From NCBI GenBank assembly GCA_036940085.1, contig JALLBK010000070.1, positions 1 to 64,000 on the forward strand: a stretch of DNA of 64,000 nucleotides, read 5' to 3'. Positions 8,172 to 41,262 of the stretch are shown one piece after another. This DNA comes from Discostella pseudostelligera. Taxonomy: Eukaryota > Bacillariophyta > Thalassiosirophyceae > Thalassiosirales > Thalassiosiraceae. Below the pieces are notes generated by a model. The model made no database searches and had not been told where the DNA came from. It saw only the letters and a program-made list of their open reading frames with translations. The position numbers were made by a program, and so were the translations under genes. Positions within the stretch are counted from its first letter, which is position 1; each line of letters opens with the position of its first letter.

Positions 8172-8541
8172 CATGATGATACCAAATTAAAGTTGATGAT
8201 ACACCAAATGAAAACTCATCCATGGGGAGCAGCCTGCATGCAAGAAACTTGGACCCTAGGAATGTCTACATTCACCATAGATGGGTACACAGCTATCATG
8301 CACGGACATACAAACAGAAGCAAAGATGCCAGGGGTAGAAACAAAGCTTGTGACTGAATCCTCTTGTTAAGCCCACTCTTCATGAAAGCCCATGAGTGAG
8401 CAAAGGAACACACAGTCACAATTCCAATTGATCACAAATTTGAAGGACACTTCCTTGGAATTGCACTCACCTTCCCTAACTATGATGACAATGATGGAAA
8501 ACAAATCAAAGGCCACCTCAAACTTTTCCTCTGCTCTATTT
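8172..8541 (+). pseudogene. non-LTR retrotransposon ORF, 5' part (AP-endonuclease domain)
   Basis: Frame 0 reads as the endonuclease domain of a diatom non-LTR retroelement: MQETWTLG (compare the family's QETW), a DGYTAIMHGH segment, and finally KLFLCSIY. Stops sit at 8355-8357 and 8397-8399. The frame breaks off inside the Tyr codon of SIYHP, where the large DNA transposon is inserted. It resumes in phase at 17296 once the transposon and one copy of its 8-bp duplication are removed. The 5' end of the element is not visible; the frame is closed by a stop at 8169-8171. Confidence 0.7.
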
Positions 8542-8554
8542 CTAGGTTGCAAAT
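8534..8554. repeat. left target-site duplication and TIR of the 8.7-kb transposon
   Basis: CTCTATTT (8534-8541) followed directly by the terminal inverted repeat CTAGGTTGCAAAT (8542-8554). Both are matched exactly at the other end (17275-17295). Confidence 0.92.
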
Positions 8555-8593
8555 TACCGGATTGAAAAAGTAATTACCAAAGGCTGAGATCCA

Positions 8594-8629
8594 GTAAAAC
8601 TGGGTAATACCAGTAATACCCAGTTTTAC
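8594..8629. repeat. subterminal hairpin of the transposon's left end
   Basis: GTAAAACTGGGTA (8594-8606) is followed by its reverse complement TACCCAGTTTTAC (8617-8629). Together they form a 13-bp stem that overlaps the GTAATACC motif shared with the right end. It may be a transposase binding site. The stretch from 8630 to 8992 holds no gene. Confidence 0.6.
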
Positions 8630-8992
8630 CATTTTCTTACCCATAATATTGCCAAAATGTGGCCCTATCAGAGGCAGTAAATTAGACTTCCTCTCAAATT
8701 CGGTGATCGTTTCTGCGAGTATTAATTGGATCGCCGATCAAGCAGGAAGTTCTTAGAACTTCACAAAAGCCCTGCAATGTTATATATTGCTTCTCATTTC
8801 ATTTATTGTATCTAGAAGCAACTAATGGTAAATAAAGCCATATATTGCAGCACACTAGTTACTATCATGTACTAGAATGTCATAATGCCCTTAGTTCTAA
8901 TGATATCATACTTGGTGTATTACTATTATCTATAACATATTACTACCTAGTACTATGAATATTCCCCCCACACACACATAATACCGTCCTGC

Positions 8993-10184
8993 TTACTTCC
9001 ATCCCGCCCTCGTCGACGATCTTTGATGTGGACGCATGTTCATTCTCTCGGGTGGTTGCACTGGCCTCTTTTGCTTTTTAGAATTGCTACTACCACTAGC
9101 CATTCCCACCGCCTGAGCCTCTTCCTCAAAAGTCTTCCCAAATTCATTAAGGCCCTCATCTTCAGCACTCTCCTCCACATCATCTTCTTCATGGCCATCC
9201 TCATTCCCAACATCATCATCGACAATACTCTCATCGTCACTGCCGCCACCGACACTGCCGTCATCACCGCCACCACAGTCCTCTTCGTCATCACTATCTT
9301 TATAATTATTCCACGCCCCCCTCCCACCTCTCTTGCGATCCCAATTACTGAGAATAATTGTATCCTCCTTGGGATCAGACTCATACTCGAAGTCTTCGTG
9401 GTCATCAACATCAACATCATCATCATCATCATCACCTGCCACAACCATCTCCTCAGTCCGAGTAGCCAATACAGTATAGGCAGTCTTCTTCGAATGTTTG
9501 TCACTCAACAAGAATTTCCTTCCTCCATCCTTCGACTCAATCCACTTCTCCCAATATCGACAAAGAACCTTGAAATCATGATGGTTCCTCTTGAATGCCG
9601 GCTTCCAGGAGTCCATCACCTTGCAATAGTGTTTCATACCACTGCGCTTCCATGTAGTGACACCATAGACACGCTTGATACCTTTCCCTGAGGTATAGAG
9701 CGACTTCACAATCTTACCATCGGGCGTCTTCTTCTTCAACCATACATCATCACTGTTCTTAATCAAATATACAATGTATGCAATGTCGCTGGCAGTGATT
9801 ATGTCTAGATAGGAAGATCCAACATTCTTGATGAGTAGATTGTTGTAGTATCAATCGGCATGCACCAATCTCACAAATCCTGCGAGAAACTCCATGAGCT
9901 TGTCCATTCGCCCCTCCTCCTGAAAATAAATCACTCCCAAATAGTACCGTAAAACATGCTGTATAAGCAAAGGGGTTGCACTTGGTTAGCAGAAAATTCG
10001 AAGGATTTAGTTTTTGATTTGAAAATCACGTCTGATACTATTCCTACGTAGGAGATTCACATCTGGAACCACTCCACAGTAGGCAATATGCTCCTCGCAA
10101 GAGCGACCACGGTCGCCGATAGCAATGCCGACAATGTCGATCACCCTGCCGATCATATCGTTAATAGGATGATTATTGTTCATG
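8993..10184 (-). pseudogene. transposon cargo gene B: acidic protein of unknown function
   Basis: Reading from an ATG at 10182-10184, the first exon carries IGRVIDIVGIAIGDRGRSC followed by EEHIAYCG. A probable intron ends near 9960. The frame then continues through YFQEEGRMDKLMEFLAGF, hits TGA at 9852-9854, and resumes as LDIITASDIAYIVYLIKN into the 257-residue 3' ORF. That part has a Trp- and Lys-rich region (KRVYGVTTWKRSGMKHYCK), then very acidic Asp runs, an RGGRGAW patch and a basic tail. Similar proteins occur, from memory, as uncharacterised repeated genes in other diatoms. No enzymatic motif is recognised. The acidic and basic low-complexity tail suggests a nucleic-acid or chromatin protein, which is inference only. 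Confidence 0.5.
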
Positions 10185-10580
10185 GTGTTGGTGTGCTATG
10201 CACTTGCTTATGCATGGTGTTTGTATGTTGATTGTGTGCACAGACACACATGCTGAGTAAAAACTCAACACGTCATATCTTCAAGACAAATGGTCGAAAA
10301 CCCATAAAACCACATATGGGCGGAAAGCTCTCTTTGAGCCGCATCCAGTTATCACACTTAATGTTCCACTGTTGTAGGAATAGGCGTTATATGCTTGAAA
10401 GAAAGTTTGCACTTAATTATTTTTGCATGTTGCTTAATAAACATTTTGCTTATACAGTGTGTTTTATGGTAATCATCTGGAATAATCAACATTCTTCCAT
10501 TGTGTAAATTCCCTTTGCCGGCACAACAGAATAATATCGTTAGTAGTTCGATGAGCAGCGAATTCCAGAATAATAATAAA

Positions 10581-11038
10581 CTAATACCATATCGCGTACT
10601 CACTCAAGTATGTAGCTCGGACAAAGCCATTGACATTACATCTCATGTCGGTGTACCTCTTAACAACCGTAGGTGCAATTAGAGTACCTCACTTCTCCTC
10701 AAAAACCACATCATCCGGTAATGGCAGGTGTCTCTTCACAAAGACAGAGAAACGCATCCCCTCCCATTCTGGGTTGTGTACAATCCACCCCTTCTCGAGG
10801 AACTTGAACCGAGGAAACAGATACTCAGAGCAAAACTTCATGACCTGCTCAGAGACGTCAAGATTGTCCTCTGTCCACTTGTACATTACTCTCAGTTCGT
10901 GCAGATTCCCCTCCTCCCGACCGCATGTGCTGCCCATGACTTCAGTGTCCTCACCTCATTCACCAACTTGTCCACCTTCCCCTCCAAGAAGACGACATAT
11001 TCATCGTCATTGGCATCTCCTCCGGGTTGGCTTGTCAT
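10581..11038 (-). pseudogene. transposon cargo gene A: unknown conserved protein, frameshifted
   Basis: It starts MTSQPGGDANDDEY at 11038. The frame slips by one base near 10930 in a G/A-rich run, then reads LDVSEQVMKFCSEYLFPRFK and VFVKRHLPLPDDVVFEEK. TGA at 10689-10691 interrupts it where a Trp codon (TGG) would fit, and it continues as GTLIAPTVVKRYTDMRCNV to a stop at 10581. The product would be about 150 residues, helical at the start and Trp/Phe-rich later. It lies between gene B and the transposase, on the same strand as B, and may be its upstream exon. No function is assigned. Confidence 0.5.
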
Positions 11039-11626
11039 TGTTGATAGTCAGTAGAGAATGAATGTTGTCGGTAATGAATAATTTATGGCATCTACTCACT
11101 GGATCATGTACTAAGTACCTTTAGTACTTTGAGAGTGGTTAGATGTGGTTGGTTAGTGTAGTTAGTGTCAATAGATATTCGGTATTCTAATCTTCCAATA
11201 CTTATTCCTACGTTGCTGTTTGAATTTGACATTCTGGGAAAATAATTTGAATTTGTTTCCAATGACATTCAGGTTACTACTAATTCCTACATGGTGTCAA
11301 ATTGTATGTGGCAATGTAGTTATGTGTATCTGTTCCTCTATATCCATTCATGTATATCATGAGACGTACTGATTCCTGCTCTAATAGTTTCGCCAAATAA
11401 CATTCCAGTTCCACTTCCCCCCATTTTTATCACTGTGGTCTTCCTGCCAAATCTTTTCTGCCTTCCCGCCACAAATATAGATGTTCCCGCCAATAAACAA
11501 GTCTTCCTGCCACTTTTGTTTCTATGATATCACCACAACCACATCATTACCTTCCATGATCATAATCTTAATCGCCATCGCCATCGCCCCCCTGCCCCCT
11601 CCCCCATCAATAAATTATTCCGCACA
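11039..11626. other. divergent promoter region inside the transposon
   Basis: No gene is seen. It separates gene A (-) from the transposase (+). It contains a regularly spaced TTCC(C/T)GCCA array, described separately. Confidence 0.5.
11441..11512. promoter_or_regulatory. four TTCC(C/T)GCCA motifs at 20-22 bp spacing
   Basis: Copies start at 11441 (TTCCTGCCA), 11463 (TTCCCGCCA), 11484 (TTCCCGCCA) and 11504 (TTCCTGCCA). Spacing is close to two helical turns, and the array lies 115-185 bp before the transposase ATG. TTCCCGCC is the core of E2F/DP binding sites, so S-phase control is a reasonable inference. The two TTCCTGCCA copies differ by a single C-to-T change at a CpG. Confidence 0.5.
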
Positions 11627-14600
11627 ATGCCGAGGACACAGAGGAGGATATCATATGGCTGCAAATATTGCCACCAACCTTTTCATCGTTTGGGAGATTA
11701 TCGTCACCACATTCGAACTCATGAGCAGCAATTACCCCAATCCCCCGTGAAACCACCGAATCAATTATTATCTCGGAAATCCGATGGCGAGGGTGTTTTT
11801 GACTTCGATGGCATCCTAGATCGCGAAGACAATTTTAACAACGAGATTGCGTTAGATTCTGATGTAGATTCATTCTACTCTGACGCGGCGGCATTCGACC
11901 ATGCTGACAACAATAATGCGGATGACGACGTGTCCGCGTCCGACGGTGATTATGATTCTGATGACGTTTCGGACGACAGTGAATTCTCTGACTGCACCTA
12001 CATTCAACCGGACTCGTCTCACACAGACATGAACGATGACTGTTTCAGCTATGATTTTGAAGAGGATGAATTGTCGATTGAGGAACTTAGCTGCAAATGT
12101 CGCCGACATGTCGGCGACATGCGACACTGTCGCTGGATTTCGCCGACATGGGGCTATCATAGCGACACAAAAACACCTTAACGTATCTACCCTGTACGTA
12201 GGAATCAGTATATATGTAGGCAGATATACGTTTAGCGATGATATTTTTGCTAAATGTGTTGACATGTCGCCGACATGTCACGACATTTGACATTTCAGGG
12301 GTAAATTTACCCTCCCAGCCGACATGACACAGCCGACATTTGCAGCTAAGTTGAGGAAGAATGCCTTCCAAATTACACTCCCAGGCCTTTTCCAGACAAA
12401 GTTTTCCCATTCAGTGAGAACATATATGCGAAGAAATCAAAAAAGCTATCTGCCGAATATATTGCACAACTTCAGATCAGCCAGCTGTTCAATCGAAATA
12501 AGGCGAGTATTAAAATGCATGATGAGCTCATCGATATCATCAATACATATGTTGTGCATTCACCACCGCCACAGAAGCTGTTACATCATAAACAGTTCTT
12601 GGAGAAGATGGAGCAAAAAATCGACACATCAGATATGCAGCCAATATATGGATCTGTTCGACTTACGAATAATTCTTTGGTGACGGTACCAGTCTTTGAT
12701 ATGAAAGCAATGATATTGTCAATTGTACACGATGAAGTACTGATGCGTGAGGAAAACTTTGCTCCTGGGCTCGATATCTTCACTGGTTACGTCGACCCAG
12801 ATTGTGAGGAGAACAATTCGTATGGGGAAATTCACACAGGGGATGCATGGAAACATGCGGTTGCTAGATTCGGGGGTGGTGAAAAGAAATATATGCCACT
12901 TGGGCTTGTGGTGTTTGGTGATAAATCGCACACTTATCTCCATGGCACATTGTCCCTCACACACATCACGTTCACAGCAACATTCTTCAACAGGGGAGTG
13001 CGGAATAACCCAGACTCATGGTGACCGATGGCATATATCCCCAATTTATCGCATGCAAACGTAGGTGGTATCAAGTCAGTTACAAAGGCACAGAGTGAGC
13101 ACTATTGTATTGTGTACGTGTTGAAGTCATTCGAATTATCAGAGGGAGGGGGAATTCGGACAGTGGTAATGGGGAAAATGGTACACATAAAACCATTTAA
13201 TCATTTATTCATTGGTGACATGGAGGGACACAGCAAATGGCTTGGGCACTACAACAGTAGCCAACCTGGTGTCAGTCGGCCATATCGTGACTGTCACTGC
13301 CAATTTGAAGATTTATCGCATCCTAACCCAATGATGTGAATACACCGAAGCAATCGAATATTGTCAGGCAATGAGAATGATGGCAAAAGATGACAATAGG
13401 ATGATGGCGAAGAAGTATTTAGTAAAACAGTCACGTCATAACATCACCAATGCAATGTATCAAGCACGGTTACCTTTGTCGGATGGAGTTTATGGGGTGA
13501 ATAGAATGTGTCCACCTGAGTCACTGCATACAATTGATGCTGGATTGATGATTTATATTCTGGAATCTTTACAAGACATGATACGTGGTGGAAAGTGTCG
13601 GGAAGACTTGGATGTGGCGCATGCGCAGATGTTTCGAACAATAAAACGACAGAGCCAGCGTGATTTACCACGTGGTGCGATTCGCAGGGGACTCATCAAA
13701 AGCACTCACTGCCAATCATAGGAGAGAAAGGGCAACCTGTTCCTTCTGTTGTGCATTGGTCACACATCTGCTGGTGAATTGATCTTACATTGCGAGCTCG
13801 GATTAACTCCATCAGAGTGGAAGCAGTGGTTGATATTCTTGCAAATGTATCTGGCTATGGGAGAATGGTTTCATGATTCGCGACCAAAAGCTGAGGTTAA
13901 AAATGCAAGGAACGCAATTGGGGCAGTAATAGAATCACTGAAACATTTCTTCCCCCGGAAACAGGACAGTCATGAGTACAACATTCCAAAATTGCATGGC
14001 TTGACAAAGGTGCAATACTACATGTGCTTGTTCGGAAGTGCGATAAACTTCTACGGAGGGCCGGGAGAAGCGTCATATAAATCTTTTGTCAAGGCTCCAG
14101 GTGCAAAGACTCAGCAACGGGTTGGTGAGTTCGTGACACAAACAGCAGAGCAGTATTACACAATCATGGCGGTGAACAAGGTAACCTGGTTTGTTGATGT
14201 GCAGTTACCGAAGGAGAAATTGTGGGACGAAAATATGATGCACAGTGACAAGAGTAGAACAACATGCACTGCGTCGGGGAAATATTACGTGGACATCCTT
14301 CAAGATGGGACACATACATTAAGATCGGATAGCAAACAACTAACCAGAGTTGGGATCGATGACAATCTACTAGCGGTATTTTGTCGAGTAGCGATGCAAG
14401 ACGAACAATGGTATGGCAAAACACCATACACATTTACAGGATATACACACGCAAGTGTTGCTGGGAGTGATGGCAAGAGTATTAGTTACAATGCACATCC
14501 TTGCTACCACGGTGCAGCCTGATACGATTGGGCTTACATCCATTATGATATTGATGGAGTGCAGCAATTTTACCCGTCGAGAATTTTGGGCTTCACAAAG

Positions 14601-14864
14601 TCGGGGAAGGAAAGCATCAGTGCAATCATACAATATTCGCTTGAGGATGTGACATGGGATCGGTTGCAGGAGGATTTCGTGGTACCTTTTCATCTGTGTA
14701 CTGACACAAACAAAGAAGATATTGTACCACTCACATCTCTTTGTCATCCTATTTGTGTCATACCAGATTATGGTGGCGGACATCAAAATGATACGTACAT
14801 GATGATCCTACCAAAGGGGCAATGGAGTCAATACTTTACTAGGTTCTATAAGAAAACTATTTAA
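11627..14864 (+). pseudogene. C2H2-DDE transposase (Plavaka/KDZ-like), interrupted
   Basis: The ATG at 11627 opens with a C2H2 finger (CKYC, 12 residues, HHIRTH), then an acidic stretch. Without the 265-bp MITE and one duplication copy the frame continues (273 bp, a multiple of 3). The core has a VVFGDKSHT block, a likely first catalytic Asp, and FIGDMEGHSKWLGHY, a likely second one, followed by PYRDCHC. Lesions: TGA at 13022-13024 (an Arg fits before PMAYIPNL), a one-base shift near 13335, TAG at 13719-13721 and TGA at 14520-14522 (a Trp fits before YDWAYIHYD). The intact protein would be close to 990 residues. It cuts and pastes its own element. The family name rests on the finger-plus-DDE architecture and on GDKSHT-type blocks known from Plavaka-type transposases. 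The exact superfamily is uncertain. Confidence 0.72.
12086..12350. mobile_element. 265-bp MITE inside the transposase gene
   Basis: Perfect 17-bp TIRs (CTTAGCTGCAAATGTCG at 12086-12102, its complement at 12334-12350) are flanked by the 8-bp duplication TTGAGGAA (12078-12085 and 12351-12358). The interior is rich in GCCGACATG inverted repeats and encodes nothing. Its first 13 bases match the host transposon's TIR at 10 positions, so it was probably moved by a related transposase. Insert plus duplication equals 91 codons, but the inserted sequence carries a stop at its 12179-12181 TAA. Confidence 0.88.
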
Positions 14865-14899
14865 ATGTTGAAGTGAATAACTTGACAATCTACAAATTA

Positions 14900-16543
14900 T
14901 TATAAATGTAACTGACAAAATAGATTGGACAGATATTGTTGAGTTTCATTCAAATCCTGACCATTGTTGTTACCTCCAACCACAGCAGTCTTTAGGAACA
15001 TAGAAATACACATGATGTCATCATCTGCACAACATCTTGATGAAATACAATATGGAATCCGTGCGTTGAATAGAAGGAAATCACCAGGTCACATTGGCAC
15101 TGCAACACCCAATGTTGGAAAGCAAAAATATACCACAACATAGTCATCTAGATTGTATGATTTCCTACCTCCCAAAAGAACATGAGCAATGCTCAAGGTG
15201 AAGTCGTCGTCTGTGTGACAACGAAGAAACACATTGCAGCCAAATGCAATGGCACCAAAATATTTTGCATGAGGAATGTGTGCACATGTACGGTGCCGGT
15301 GGGGAGCATGCATGGTTTTAAATGGAACGACGTCCTTTGCTGCACATACATGATCAATCACTTCCTGGTCGGCAAACATCTCAAACAATAGTTCCACCCT
15401 CATGACCATTTTCATAACATGACGCCAGTGGATTGTATCAATTCTCTCTGCCCACCTATCGCAGTCGAGTACGCCTGTTGAGTTCCTACCTGGGCGTACA
15501 CCAAAACACTTGTACATGACGCACTCATTTGGATCACCGAATATTGTCTTGGAGTGTCCCCTCGAAAGTGATACCCGATGCGTAGACAAGATATAACTGA
15601 GTGAATGATATGTTTTGTTCAGTCCAGATTTAGGAAGAACTGCCAAAGCTGACTGTCGCGGAACTAAGGTAAAGGTGGAACCTCCATTGGAGAGAAGCGA
15701 CATACCCATGAAATGATGTAGTGGTGACGGCGGAGCATATAACTGATGATGAACTTTCAGAACATGCCAAGACTTAATATTATTCTTCTAAACAACAAAT
15801 GACAATCAAATAGATATATTAGATATCGACACATACTTCGACTCACCATAGATTGGGGTGGGAGTTGGGGAACATCGTAATCGATTCCCCCATCACAAAC
15901 AAGAGAGATATTGTCGGTCAGCTCATCCTTGTAATTCCCCGCCATGACGGTGAATCGGGGTGGAACATTGATGTTGTTCATATATATATTCAATTTAAGA
16001 TGTCATCGTGCTGTTGTCATAGCGCAAAGATCCAGAGCAGTATTGTTACTCTTATTGATACATGGTGCTGGTATCACATATGCCATTGCTGCGGCTTGAG
16101 TACGACATGATGTAGATGTATTAGCTTTGAATATGCGAATCCAAGCGGGAGAGGAGGTATTACTATTCAATGAAATGCAGTTTTCGACGTCGTTCTTCCT
16201 TTTTCGAAGGAGGTCTGAGCAAAAACCTTGGGCTGGATAACAAGCATGATTAGACAATATGGGTGGACAAAATAAATAAAAGTTTATGAAAATAATACTT
16301 ACCATTTAATTCGAATATGCAAGGAAGACCGCACTTCTTACAACGGGTGCATTGTCTATCATTTTTGTCCAGAAAGATACATTATTGATGATGATCCATG
16401 CACAACGAGCACACTGACTTGCTTCTTCGATGGAGGCGTATGGATGGGGGGAATAGGCACCTGTCGAGACCAGCTGCTTCGCATTCATTACATACAAAAT
16501 TTGAGCGGCATAGGAACTCAGCGTGATGATGCACACACTCATG
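14900..16543 (-). pseudogene. Cys-rich 2OG-Fe(II) dioxygenase-like protein, transposon cargo
   Basis: Three exons splice in phase: about 16543-16303, 16232-15847 and 15786-14900. Exon 1 encodes a Cys/His cluster (CVHHH, CNEC, CSLC, CTRCKKCGLPC), probably zinc-binding. The last exon has FGAIAFGCNVFLRCHTDDDF, with an HxD pair, then YVVVYFCFPTLGVAVP and PGDFLLFNARIPYC. This fits the HxD...H double-stranded beta-helix dioxygenase pattern, with Tyr in place of the distal His (TAT, one transition from CAT). Stops: TAA 16382-16384, TGA 16003-16005 and TGA 15089-15091 (between VP-M and PGD). The start codon is not clear. In fungi, TET/JBP-type dioxygenases travel inside KDZ transposons. A similar role in DNA base oxidation is inference here. 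Confidence 0.5.
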
Positions 16544-17274
16544 GCCTAGATCGGTACATCATATGCACAAGACGGTTATTGGAGATATTGGTGTGATATG
16601 GACAGAGAGATGGGATATCGGGGAGTGGGGAGAGAGGAGCGGGCGAGGGCAGTGGCAGCTGATGGTAGTGGTACAATACTGACAGTAAAATGATATGTGT
16701 TGATGGCAATACTGTTCCCTCTCAGAGAGAACAACAACACCCATTTATGGCAACACAGAAGCAATAGAAACTATATTGAAGCAATATGTTATGTCTTGCA
16801 TGTATATATGAAGCCATTGATAGTTTGTTAACTATTTCTCTAAGCTATAAACTTATTAAAGAAACCATTGGTGACGTCTTAAATAACAATACATGGGGAT
16901 ACGTACGTACTTATAGGTACGTGAGTATCTACGTATAATGCCAGTACCTATAGCAGATTTTGTGAGGTTTTACTGTTACTGCACCAGATCCAGTAAAGAA
17001 TTCAAACACAAAAAACATGCTATTGGGGGCCTGTTCCCCATTGCAATGATCCATACAATATTAAATATAACACCTAATGAATAGTAATGCAGTCATCATT
17101 GTCATGATCACTGTCAACCCCCGTATCGTCCTCATACATCACCAAACTATGCTCTCCTGGGTTCCGGTTTTACCAAGAGCTCACCACCCAACTTTACCAG
17201 GACTTATTTTCATTACTTACTGAGCTGGACACAGTAAAAAATTACTACACAGTAATACCAGTAATACTGCAGTT
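16544..17274. other. right subterminal region of the transposon, non-coding
   Basis: No gene is seen. It includes a TACGTACGTAC run near 16905 and, from 16963 on, several TTTACC/GGTAAA and CAGTAA words like those at the left end. The word AGATCCAGTAAA is shared by both ends (8588 and 16986). Confidence 0.5.
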
Positions 17275-17295
17275 ATTTGCAACCTAGCTCTATTT
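17275..17295. repeat. right TIR and target-site duplication of the 8.7-kb transposon
   Basis: ATTTGCAACCTAG (17275-17287), the exact complement of the left TIR, is followed by CTCTATTT (17288-17295), identical to the left duplication. Confidence 0.92.
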
Positions 17296-18942: not shown

Positions 18943-21900
18943 TCAAGATTGCGAGCCAACAAAGGCTCTTCCCAAACGTAGTAAATCGGCAAACATTCCA
19001 GATGCGGACAAATCTGGTCCTGCTGCAGCGCCCTTAACAATCAACGGTGATGTAGTGTACCTGCTTGTTTCGAAAGCCACCAAGTTTTCATTATCACGAA
19101 GGCGGTACAATGTGTCTATATTGTCCACCGCTTCCAGATTGCATTTGCATTTTCCATTGGCAACATCAATGACAAACTTGTACCGGAGTAGTTTGCCTTC
19201 GGCAATGGCTTCCTTGTATCGTTCCAGCATGGGAGAGTCAAGTGCCTTGATGTCCTCAAGAACAGCAGCACGAACTTCGCTTTTGCTACCGTTGTATTCT
19301 TTGTCCCGAATTTCAACTGGAATTAATGACTCCACCTCCACATCTTCCACTGATAAATTCAACCCTAGCTCACGAGCGAGGATTACAATCTTGCGACAAA
19401 CATCAATTCCACTCAAATCTTCACGGATATCATCTTCAGCGAAGTCTTGCTCGACTGCGAGGCGGACAGCTTCCGAAAACGAAACCTCCTCGTTCATGTG
19501 ATTAAAGACGTAGGCCATAGTTCCACTTAAGCAGCCCCGAAGCAACAACACGTCATCGCCAGTTTGCACCAAGTCTCGCAATGTTGACAAAATGGGCAAT
19601 GCTGAACCCACACTGCTCTCGTACTGCCATTCCACAGTATTGGCACGCTTCGCCTTCTGGATGGCACAGTAACGCTCCAAGGGTCCAGCTGCCGCCCTAC
19701 GCCCAGGACTAATAACGTTAACGCCCAAAGACATCCATTTCTCGTATAGGTCCGCCAAGTTGTCATCGTTCGTGCAGTCGATTATGACTCGATTGGGATT
19801 GACGTCGGCCTCAAGCGACGCCGTGAACGCATCAATGTCGAGATCTTGTGCATCATTACTTTCTAATAATTTCTCAACATCATCGTATTCCATCAAGCAT
19901 TTGCCATTCTTTCCCATGATCATCTTCGATGACGAGGCAATGGTGTTGACACCGACGCCAAAATTCAGGTTCTTAGCCAAGCTCTCCTTCTGGGCGGTCA
20001 GTTGTCTAATCAACGCCGATCCCAGCTTTCCCGTTCCTCCTAATATGGCAACACTGACCATTGTTTGTGAAAGAGTGAACGCCATGTGAGCAGCACGCAA
20101 CGCACGGGAGACATCCTTGGCTTCCACCACGACGGCCACTTGCCGTTCCGACGAACCTTGAGCAATAACACGAATGTTGACATTTGCTTTGGCTAAGGAA
20201 CTCATGAAACTTGCAGACACGCCCGATCTCATTGCCATCCCCTCTCCAACAATCGCGACAATGGCCATGGGACTGTCCGTCAGACTGATAGAATTGACGT
20301 TTGAACGCGACAGTTCTAGCTCAAAGGTTGACTCTAGTGCTCCCAACGCTGCCCTACCCTGATTTTCGGGCACTACAACGGTGATACTTGACTCTGAACT
20401 AGCCTGTGTTACCATCAACACATCAATTGATGCACCAGCCATGGCACCCATGAACCGTTCTGCCACCTCAGCACCACCGATGACACTGGCCCCCTCCAGC
20501 GTTAGCAACGAAACTCGATCCACCGACGTAATTCCCTTAATTGGGATTTCACCCTTCTTACTCCTCCAGTTGACGACCTTGCCATCCTGGTTGACCTCTG
20601 ATAGACTGGCGCATCGACCCTGTATGACAGTTCCCCGGAAGGCAGGATTGAAGATATTCCGAACATATACGGGTATATTCGAGTCGATGCACGGCACCAT
20701 CGCACTGGGATGCAACACTTGAGCACCAAAGTACGCCAGTTCCATAGCCTCATCATACTTCAACGAACTAATGCTAAATGCCTCGGGAACACGACGTGGA
20801 TCGGCTGTGTAGACACCATCGGTGTTTTTCCACATCGTTACGCGCGACGAGGCCACAAGCTTGGCGAATATGGTAGCGGAGTAGTCAGAGCCGGAACGTT
20901 TGAGAGTGGTGGGTACGCCGTCCGAGGTTGTGGCGACAAAGCCCGTGGCAACAACAATTGGTGCGGAATCATTACTTCCCTCCAAATTAGTGCCGTCGTT
21001 GTTCGTAAAATTAACCCCCTCCTTGCGTCCCACAGTGCTCCACCATTCCTCCATGCGCCTAGCAGTTTCTGCCCACAGTGGAACAACACCACGAGTACTC
21101 GATGAACTTCCCTTCTCGCCTAGGCCAGCATTGGCATTTTCCGACTTGACAATGAGTACATCCCGCGCATCCAACCACGCCGTCTTGACACCCTTATGTT
21201 TCAAGTACGCAAACAATGTCTGGGCTGACCAAATTTCACCAAATCCAGTCACCACCTCCATAACACTTGGGGGAACACTGCGTATCATACGTAAACTCTG
21301 TACGACACTCAATATATCCTGAGCATCCTTACGCATACGTTCTTCAATCTCTCGAGTAATTTCCGGTGGTGCCAATTCGTTCAAGATGGAAATTTGACCC
21401 TCGAGGGCACGATCGAGGACAGTTTCAGCTTGGTGAATGTCCTGCAATGCTGAGTCGACGACGGCTACTAGTTGATCGGTCATGCCTCCGCGGGCAGAGA
21501 CTATGGCCATGGTGGGGATGGGACCGGAATGCTCGACCTCGCCCTCGTCACCATTGACGATATCATCGCCATCATCGTCTGGTTTGTCATCCACACTACG
21601 CAAACGACGTCCTGAACTTTCCCTCACCAGCAAATCTCCCACAGTGCGATAGAGCTCTGCATCGGCCAACGACGCACCACCGAATTTATGCACCTCCCAT
21701 GGATTTGGTGAGTTGTTGGGAGATGTAACGCTGGACGGGCAGATTTCAGATGAATGAATACTGCTGCTGGTAGAAGTGGCAGAGCTGATGGATGCACCAA
21801 CACGAGATAATGATGTGGTGGAGGACTGCCGCCGAGAGGAGGCGGACAAGCCGCCTTGTCGCTGATTGTTTTGGCACGACGTTGAAGTTAATTTGCACAT

Positions 21901-22011
21901 GCTGGAGGGAACAAATGCCGATGAGCACACGAGGGATGCGGCGACAGTGAGGAAGGAGAGGAGGGTGTGTTTGTGAAGTAGCATCTCGATCGGGACGGAC
22001 TTGTGATGCAA
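18943..22011 (-). CDS. bifunctional aspartokinase / homoserine dehydrogenase, plastid-targeted
   Basis: A single-exon 1022-residue protein. Residues 1-35 form a signal peptide ending in SSAFVP, an ASAF-type motif that marks diatom plastid import, followed by a Ser-rich transit region. The more likely start is Met10 (MLLHKHTLLSFL). The aspartokinase domain begins near residue 105 with HKFGGASLADAEL and includes GSDYSATIFAKL and YFGAQVLHPSAM. Two ACT regulatory modules follow (VDRVSLLTLEGA, MAIVAIVGEGMA). The NAD(P) domain of homoserine dehydrogenase starts with VAILGGTGKLGSALIRQL and ends with FVIDVANGKCKC. It phosphorylates aspartate and reduces aspartate semialdehyde in the threonine/methionine branch. 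ACT domains imply feedback by threonine. The order matches plant and bacterial ThrA. Confidence 0.93.
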   Translation of the reverse strand: MHHKSVPIEMLLHKHTLLSFLTVAASLVCSSAFVPSSMCKLTSTSCQNNQRQGGLSASSRRQSSTTSLSRVGASISSATSTSSSIHSSEICPSSVTSPNNSPNPWEVHKFGGASLADAELYRTVGDLLVRESSGRRLRSVDDKPDDDGDDIVNGDEGEVEHSGPIPTMAIVSARGGMTDQLVAVVDSALQDIHQAETVLDRALEGQISILNELAPPEITREIEERMRKDAQDILSVVQSLRMIRSVPPSVMEVVTGFGEIWSAQTLFAYLKHKGVKTAWLDARDVLIVKSENANAGLGEKGSSSSTRGVVPLWAETARRMEEWWSTVGRKEGVNFTNNDGTNLEGSNDSAPIVVATGFVATTSDGVPTTLKRSGSDYSATIFAKLVASSRVTMWKNTDGVYTADPRRVPEAFSISSLKYDEAMELAYFGAQVLHPSAMVPCIDSNIPVYVRNIFNPAFRGTVIQGRCASLSEVNQDGKVVNWRSKKGEIPIKGITSVDRVSLLTLEGASVIGGAEVAERFMGAMAGASIDVLMVTQASSESSITVVVPENQGRAALGALESTFELELSRSNVNSISLTDSPMAIVAIVGEGMAMRSGVSASFMSSLAKANVNIRVIAQGSSERQVAVVVEAKDVSRALRAAHMAFTLSQTMVSVAILGGTGKLGSALIRQLTAQKESLAKNLNFGVGVNTIASSSKMIMGKNGKCLMEYDDVEKLLESNDAQDLDIDAFTASLEADVNPNRVIIDCTNDDNLADLYEKWMSLGVNVISPGRRAAAGPLERYCAIQKAKRANTVEWQYESSVGSALPILSTLRDLVQTGDDVLLLRGCLSGTMAYVFNHMNEEVSFSEAVRLAVEQDFAEDDIREDLSGIDVCRKIVILARELGLNLSVEDVEVESLIPVEIRDKEYNGSKSEVRAAVLEDIKALDSPMLERYKEAIAEGKLLRYKFVIDVANGKCKCNLEAVDNIDTLYRLRDNENLVAFETSRYTTSPLIVKGAAAGPDLSASGMFADLLRLGRAFVGSQS

Positions 22012-22823
22012 AAACTATACTGCAGATATTATGAAAGAAGATGACGACTACCTATTGAAGATTCATCCTCTCGCAGTGGCAGAGAGGTATCGTAGGAGCA
22101 AGAAGTGGAAGTGGAGGAAGATTGAGGACGCGACGACGTCGATGACGATGAAGTGAGAGTGTGATGCTGATGCTGCTACTGAGGAAGCTTGCTTCCGCGA
22201 GCTGCCGCCGACGCCGACGGCGTGTTCATTGGATCTTTTTGTTGCTTGCATTTGCACTTGCATGCAAAGGAGCGAGAGGGGGCGGGCTTGTGTGGTCCGG
22301 AAGCTTTGGTGACAGACAGACGTGCACCAGAAGAAAATCTCTACGACATCTACGAACCACATCCATCGCCCTCGACCTCAAGAATAGACCATGACCATGG
22401 CCGCCGAAAATCGTACTCGTACCACGAAATACGTTGCACATACTCTCCCAATGCAATATCTAACAGTCACGAACTGAGTCATGAGTGGATCTTTTTGCTA
22501 CTGGTTCCTCTCTATGTGAACCCTGCGCGGCCACGTCGGCAGCGGCGACACGTCAGCGCCGACGGACACCACCGACCAACCTGCCGCCGGCCGCCTGCTG
22601 CCACCATCGTCGTCGGCCAACGCCATCGTCATCGTCGGCCATCGACGCAGACCAAAGCAGTAAATCAAAGCTAATCAAAGCATCCATCAGCATCAGCCTC
22701 AGCATCAGCATCAGCATCAGTCCCAGCTGCATCAGCAATACAAGCATATGCAGAAGAAGTTGTCTCTGCCAATAACACTCGGGTGCCATTCATAATTTTT
22801 GTTGTTGGAACGCAACCGCAATC
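22012..22823. promoter_or_regulatory. divergent promoter region between two plastid-protein genes
   Basis: It lies between the aspartokinase/homoserine dehydrogenase (-) and the hydrolase (+). It contains a (CAGCAT)n-like tract at about 22679-22735 and no gene that can be supported. Short ORFs are Arg/His-rich and unsupported. Confidence 0.4.
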
Positions 22824-40744: not shown

Positions 40745-41145
40745 GATGTAACGCTGGAGAGGTTGTCGATTATGCAAAATCAGTGCATCGCTGCTGCGAT
40801 GGAGATTATTGGATCCATGAAAGCAATATTCTGATTATATGCTCGTCAATAAGGTGCTGAGAGCAGGGCATGGTAGATGGTGGGTCCCATAGTAGCAAGG
40901 ACAGAAGCCCACCCGCCATGATTGTTATTGTTATTGTAACATAGTTTAGGATTGAGATTGTGGTTGTGGAGGAGGCTGGGCGGGCTTTTGTGTGAGAAAA
41001 AGAAGTGGTGGCGTCGGAAAGATTTCGTGGCGGGACAGTTCGCGCGCTAGGTTTCCTCTTTCTCGCAATTTTGGCGCGAGTGTGGCGAAAAATATGGCGG
41101 AAGGCGATGGCTTCATAAGAGGCTTCAGAAACCTCTTTGATAGGA
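40745..41145. promoter_or_regulatory. divergent intergenic region with E2F-like site
   Basis: Between the LRR gene (-) and the SGNH-like gene (+). TTTTGGCGCGA at 41069-41079 matches the E2F consensus. No gene is seen before the 5S fragment at 41146. Confidence 0.4.
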
Positions 41146-41208
41146 ACGACCACACCACTGTGACAGCACCGCTTCCCGTCTGCTCAGCGAAGTTAAGCAC
41201 AGTCGGGC
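41146..41208 (+). rRNA. 5S rRNA fragment, 5' half only
   Basis: The bases match the 5' half of eukaryotic 5S rRNA: ACGACCACACCACTG, then CACCGCTTCCCGTC and CTCAGCGAAGTTAAGCACAG and GTCGGGC. The match stops abruptly and is replaced by an (AGTATC)n-like tract at 41211-41236. The 3' half is absent, including most of the internal promoter. It is a retroposed or recombination-derived fragment in the 5' region of the next gene, not a working 5S gene. Confidence 0.85.
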
Positions 41209-41262
41209 ATATCAGTATCAGTATCAGTATCAGTATGATGCATCTGCATCGTTTCACCACTT

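Follow-up and report, generated by a model that had tools for sequence, protein, structure and literature searches.

The window analysed here, the first 64,000 nucleotides of contig JALLBK010000070.1 of the diatom Discostella pseudostelligera (assembly GCA_036940085.1), contains at 8542-17287 an 8,746-bp element. We interpret it as the decayed copy of a cut-and-paste transposon of autonomous type that carries a TET-like companion gene, for which a role against DNA methylation is the most likely one (probability about 0.78 for this explanation as a whole). The structural part of the interpretation we hold with high confidence, and an anti-silencing role for the companion we regard as an even bet. 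What we count as observation comprises the borders, the 8-bp duplications, the gene set and its order, the transposase family of the relatives, the conserved catalytic residues and the TET-like predicted fold of a relative of the companion. The window copy itself is dead: three genes were found between its terminal inverted repeats (TIRs), namely gene A, the transposase gene and gene C (Table 1), and every one is broken in this copy.

Both the exact 8-bp target site duplication and the TIRs lie where an earlier sequence-only reading of the window had placed them. The window contains no zero-mismatch TIR sites apart from these two, with three further sites at two mismatches, and the subterminal repeat, with up to two mismatches allowed, occurs only at its two listed positions (expectation 0.01). 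The termini of the element read CTAGG..CCTAG. In-silico removal of the element plus one duplication leaves a single open frame across the junction (...LFLCSIYHPHDSID... / ...KLFLCSIYHPHDSIDHTDF...), which bears out the claim that the host frame is rejoined in this way. The description of that host frame as a retroelement found no support in Pfam (no matches for the two host-frame proteins tried); a motif resembling reverse transcriptase at about 18.1 kb was recognised only by eye. The host stretch has no second copy in the assembly and hence no second, empty site, which had been suggested as a further check.

Short copies elsewhere serve as a test of the borders. A DNA search of the assembly (23.0 Mb in 963 contigs, the window being on the contig we call C70) with the element gave 56 matches, many of them short copies that join its first ~148 and last ~320 bases. 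We examined 18 distinct places, 16 fetched from this search and two (C403 and C419) from a pattern search. Both termini are present in seven, and all seven are flanked by 8-bp duplications, six exact and one with a single mismatch; at the remaining 11, one end is absent from the stretch read. One of the seven has a further left end, giving a second pairing that lacks a duplication. Over 40 bases, the window agrees with these seven copies at 27-39 positions within the element ends and at 4-18 beyond them; for copy L045, one flank was three bases long. The left flanks of L040 and L042 are alike over 98 bp (82%), and L042 carries a further element end there. The sequence-only reading had named further copies sharing these borders and duplications as support, and homology extending past the TIRs as grounds for refutation; such copies exist, and in all seven the homology ends at the TIRs. 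Its description of the element as complete holds for both ends and fails for the genes, since none of the three is intact and the element harbours two further, nested elements.

Table 1. Coordinates (window positions) of the 8.7-kb element, its genes and the elements nested within it.
Feature	Position	Strand	Remarks
Left target site duplication CTCTATTT	8534-8541		8 bp; exact match to right duplication
Left TIR CTAGGTTGCAAAT	8542-8554	+	13 bp, perfect; same or closely similar in 7 complete short copies
Left subterminal repeat GTAATACCAGTAATAC	8604-8619	+	Inside self-complementary stretch 8594-8629
Gene A	8993-11038	-	N-terminal part 11038 to ~10600; acidic C-terminal part 9850-8993
Nested element 1 (in gene A)	9947-10469		523 bp; 25-bp TIRs with 3 mismatches; TA duplication
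Transposase gene	11627-14864	+	C2H2 finger 11660-11722, acidic linker, DDE core
Nested element 2 with duplications (in transposase gene)	12078-12358		265-bp miniature inverted-repeat transposable element (MITE) at 12086-12350, TIR CTTAGCTGCAAAT
DDE residues of transposase	D1 in 12914-12946; D2 in 13211-13240; E in 14055-14081	+	
Gene C	14900-16492	-	TET-like dioxygenase with Cys-rich (Zn2Cys6-like) N-terminus; provisional start codon
Gene C parts	Cys-rich 16492-16303; inferred introns 16302-16233 and 15846-15788; last exon from 15787	-	
Right subterminal repeat GTAATACCAGTAATAC	17252-17267	+	
Right TIR, inverse of CTAGGTTGCAAAT	17275-17287	-	13 bp, perfect
Right target site duplication CTCTATTT	17288-17295		8 bp; exact match to left duplication

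The transposase has 130 relatives, the best full-length one being 72% identical; the 120 listed are 542-1,117 amino acids long, and many have the C2H2 finger and an acidic stretch at the N-terminus. In the alignment of these 120, the catalytic columns are invariant among the relatives having them (D 116/116, D 120/120, E 110/110). When 31 relatives were scanned against all of Pfam, the Plavaka family (PF18759) matched 27 (E 0.01 or lower, down to 1.8e-13), and for the nearest relative, P0001, the score is 33.3 bits, the cut-off being 26.3. An alignment of relatives, judged by eye and counted, shows C487-x1-C489 (RDCxC) and single conserved His columns at H565 and H721; neither a literal C(2)C nor a literal H(3-4)H was seen between the second D and the E. 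A profile search of PDB sequences with the transposase matched mostly zinc fingers. In the window copy the gene is damaged by nested element 2, by stops at 13022, 13719 and 14520, and by a frame change near 13336.

Gene C has 221 relatives, and a tree of 71 rows places the window copy in a supported set of eight. The HxD...H triad expected to bind Fe(II) is found in 118/118, 113/118 and 111/116 of the relatives having the respective column; the aspartate in 113/118 differs from the HxE of PE-type enzymes. The 120 relatives listed of the 221 carry no precomputed Pfam domain. In the window copy the HxD lies at 15217-15209, and there are at least two stops (16384 and 15091).

The three genes can be followed through the assembly, where gene A has matches on 12 contigs, the transposase on 11 and gene C on four. 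Gene A stands head to head with the transposase on six of its 12 contigs (C70, C90, C890, C944, C145 and C425), and these two genes form a regular pair; gene C is present at three of those six loci. At these three of the four gene-C loci (C70, C890 and C425), frames and matches put it tail to tail with the transposase, about 100 bases away or less, although on C425 the transposase is seen as its N-terminal part only. The order A-transposase-C is repeated at two loci besides the window, and because identity between C890 and the window is no more than 38-50% across the pieces of the transposase and 45-58% across those of gene C, we consider this order to be old. The placing of all the genes within the TIRs is suggested by the single long copy in the window and by the gene order conserved at C890 and C425.

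This distribution bears on the possibility that gene C is a captured passenger of no help to the element. A passenger could well be missing from three of the six loci that hold gene A and the transposase, which also counts against our own interpretation, and could turn up on a contig with no transposase match, as on C182. However, 221 relatives with conserved catalytic residues imply long selection, and the gene order has been kept at all three loci despite the divergence of C890. We therefore suggest that a passenger is unlikely. On C182, a relative of gene C stands by itself (L065:3079-4500); it has a long extension at the N-terminus, its frame is broken, and it may be a copy that was captured or left stranded. 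On C425, a similar basic/acidic frame occurs twice in opposite orientation (L063:2777-3265 and L063:6342-6749) around an internally deleted A-transposase-C element; the twin frames may belong to an additional gene or to long inverted repeats.

The nature of the enzyme was approached by fold comparison with a predicted model of the gene-C relative P0165. The predicted fold, a double-stranded beta-helix, is nearest to TET enzymes: the TET family accounts for each of the 16 top VIA entries and for 23 of the top 24 Foldseek rows, with CcTET as the best Foldseek match. In other organisms, TET enzymes act on methylated DNA by oxidation. Sequence identities to these folds are 8-12% in the VIA alignments and 9-13% in Foldseek; a profile search of PDB sequences with gene C gave no convincing relative. 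It could be argued that gene C encodes some other 2-oxoglutarate/Fe(II) oxygenase, either one that acts on nucleic acids like AlkB or FTO or one that hydroxylates proteins, unrelated to 5-methylcytosine (5mC). We consider this improbable in view of the dominance of TET among the best matches, of the VIA match to TET2, which covers model residues 88-457 and so extends beyond the barrel core, and of the association with a DNA transposon, which parallels the fungal TET/JBP elements (PMC12730594). Catalysis by gene C and its substrate are predictions. The Cys-rich part may bind DNA; the exact Zn2Cys6 cysteine spacing is found in two of the 120 relatives, and its sole PDB match is LAC9 (E 0.22).

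Several observations weigh against the reading of the element as a transposon with a TET-like companion. The TET rows in Foldseek have low TM-scores (0.18-0.54) and large root-mean-square deviations (5.8-15 A), the VIA identities to TET entries are as low as given above, and FTO and AlkB-type enzymes rank close behind TET. The Tet_JBP profile matched none of nine gene-C relatives at E up to 5 (HMMER filters drop most weak matches), none of 30 relatives at E up to 0.1, and nothing in the genome. The Pfam Zn_clus profile scores 16.4 bits on relative P0223, below its cut-off of 21. In the window copy of gene C the distal iron-binding His of the family is a Tyr (15052-15050), with a stop before it. 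The window's own transposase pieces have no Plavaka match, so that membership of the family rests on the relatives. Both TIRs are found on a single long copy, that of the window: the long relatives on C90, C890, C944, C145 and C425 showed no convincing termini. No CT-type terminal pair with a duplication was found on these five contigs or on C188, and candidate terminal pairs on C425 and C568 were not convincing. In a looser scan of the long relatives, some pairs appeared whose TIRs differ at 2-4 of 12 bases; with no control, we took them as chance.

Gene A is fast-evolving, with an acidic tail. Its window copy has in-frame stops and a changed frame and is also interrupted by a nested element; C944 has an open frame of 567 codons. 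At least two homologues exist in the protein database, in a search that scored the 7,999 candidates with the most shared words. It matches no Pfam family, and a profile search of PDB sequences gave no convincing relative. Our guess, by analogy with TnpA of EnSpm, is that it encodes a putative DNA-binding partner of the transposase.

Two unrelated insertions sit inside the element. Nested element 1 has ends that we take to be Tc1/mariner-like; 114 bases at its end (9944-10057) match a stretch of contig C548 at 98% identity, and because of this identity the family may have been active recently. The sequence-only reading had credited the large element with at least four genes, one more than we found. 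The candidate fourth gene, a minus-strand frame at about 10.0-10.2 kb, falls within nested element 1, which may account for it. Nested element 2 is a MITE flanked by an exact 8-bp duplication TTGAGGAA (12078-12085 and 12351-12358). Its family has matches on 12 other contigs; among ten loci fetched, both TIRs are present in five, four of which have 8-bp duplications (two exact, two with one mismatch), the fifth being offset by one base. The MITE probably belongs to a sister family, given the similarity between its termini and those of the large element. Such insertions might suggest that the 8.7 kb is itself a composite, with gene A or gene C derived from a different element nested in a smaller transposon. 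We reject this as very improbable: the nested insertions have their own TIRs and duplications and are confined to genes A and the transposase, the gene order is repeated at two other loci, and no further pair of TIRs and duplications was seen around gene C, where no dedicated search inside the element was made.

hAT elements make 8-bp duplications. The length of the duplication here, which is also that of Zisupton (PMC12730594), would by itself suggest a Kyakuja/Zisupton (KDZ) or hAT transposase, an assignment we consider highly implausible, as the scan of all Pfam at E 0.01 assigned 27 of the 31 relatives to Plavaka and not one to KDZ or hAT. A viral origin was also rejected, viral contigs having given no relative of the transposase or of gene C.

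Possible signs of silencing are found in the element copies. In alignments of the element ends (nine copies of each, the window included), transitions relative to the majority letter occur at 27/104 CpG cells, 93/1,457 other C/G cells and 81/2,425 A/T cells; nine copies of the nested MITE family give 32/297, 17/690 and 15/1,090. The excess at CpG is the mark that would be expected of methylated CpG, a point tempered by the fact that these counts repeat shared ancestry and come from element copies with no non-element control. C5 DNA methyltransferase has eight matches on five contigs of the genome, and in the diatom Phaeodactylum 5mC is confined to transposable elements (PMC12344493).

We suggest the following model. 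A Plavaka-like C2H2/DDE transposase would excise the element at its CTAGG...CCTAG termini and insert it by staggered cuts that leave the 8-bp duplications, and short copies with the same ends would be mobilised in trans. Gene C, a putative Fe(II)/2-oxoglutarate dioxygenase of TET/JBP-like type whose Zn2Cys6-like N-terminus would bind DNA, would oxidise methylated bases, with 5mC as first choice, on the element's own DNA; methylation-based silencing would then be lifted, allowing the transposase to be expressed or to act. Gene A would be a second, uncharacterised companion.

Elsewhere in the window, a bifunctional aspartokinase/homoserine dehydrogenase gene (18946-22014, minus strand) adjoins the retroelement-like stretch, and a 5S ribosomal RNA gene lies at 41142-41257 (Rfam RF00001, 58.1 bits).

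The gene set suggests that elements of this kind bring their own tool against genome silencing. If so, this would be a second, apparently independent case, with another transposase lineage, duplication length and enzyme subtype, and would point to a recurrent strategy and not a fungal peculiarity. It would also uncouple transposase family from duplication length, since Plavaka-type transposases would not be bound to a 2-3-bp stagger. The 221 TET-like relatives outside the known profile are a source of possible new DNA-modifying activities. More tentatively, and with less than even confidence, we raise the possibility of an undescribed transposon superfamily outside fungi, defined by a Plavaka-type transposase, 8-bp staggered cuts and its own DNA demethylase, in which a Zn2Cys6 finger would aim a TET-like oxygenase at the subterminal repeats; in that event TET-like genes would have been captured by transposons independently in fungi and algae, as a general way of countering defence by DNA methylation.

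TET/JBP genes are reported in 11 lineages of fungal DNA transposons, including PlavakaB and Zisupton (Kojima 2025, PMC12730594). The transposon-borne enzymes are described from three lineages of fungi, and escape from methylation has been proposed for them without experimental proof (PMC12730594). Outside fungi, Plavaka transposases have been noted in giant repeats of Amoebidium and in a green alga, and the available sections of those papers mention no TET gene with them (PMC11244446, PMC12633428). Literature searches on TET/JBP or dioxygenases in diatoms, algae, stramenopiles and heterokonts found, in the sections available, no transposon-borne case outside fungi, nor was any transposon-borne TET/JBP case met in those of PMC11065753, PMC12477816 and PMC12344493. 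Within the scope of these searches, the literature agrees with the earlier remark that no named diatom element has this gene set.

The fungal KDZ elements with AG-type TET/JBP enzymes resemble the present element in having a TET companion and, for Zisupton, 8-bp duplications, and CcTET, the best Foldseek match of gene C, is a close relative of the AG type (PMC12730594); their transposase, however, is unrelated at the Pfam level. PlavakaA and PlavakaB of fungi share with it the Plavaka transposase domain (27 of 31 relatives) and TIRs, and some PlavakaB have a TET/JBP-type companion. Unlike these, which make 2-3-bp duplications and end in TGT..ACA or CATCA..TGATG, the present element has 8-bp duplications (in the window and all seven complete short copies) and CTAGG..CCTAG ends; its transposase has RDCxC where the CMCT clade (EnSpm-Mirage-Chapaev-Transib-Plavaka) has C(2)C, with no H(3-4)H seen; and it carries the extra gene A and, in gene C, a Zn2Cys6-like N-terminus and HxD in place of the HxE of the PE-type enzymes assigned to Plavaka (PMC12730594). 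Of solved folds, TET2, CMD1, NgTET and CcTET are the closest to the predicted model of gene C and share its HxD...H iron site, but gene C is only 8-13% identical to them and has no Tet_JBP profile match. EnSpm/CACTA elements, with TnpA and TnpD, likewise combine an EnSpm-related DDE transposase with a second, non-catalytic protein, but they make 2-3-bp duplications and have CACTA termini, and gene A has no Pfam match. The element would work like a Plavaka transposon that has a TET companion, but because it departs from Plavaka in three defining features (duplication length, termini and the C(2)C/H(3-4)H motifs), we do not file it as Plavaka and regard it, on its sequence features, as a distinct lineage with a Plavaka-type transposase.

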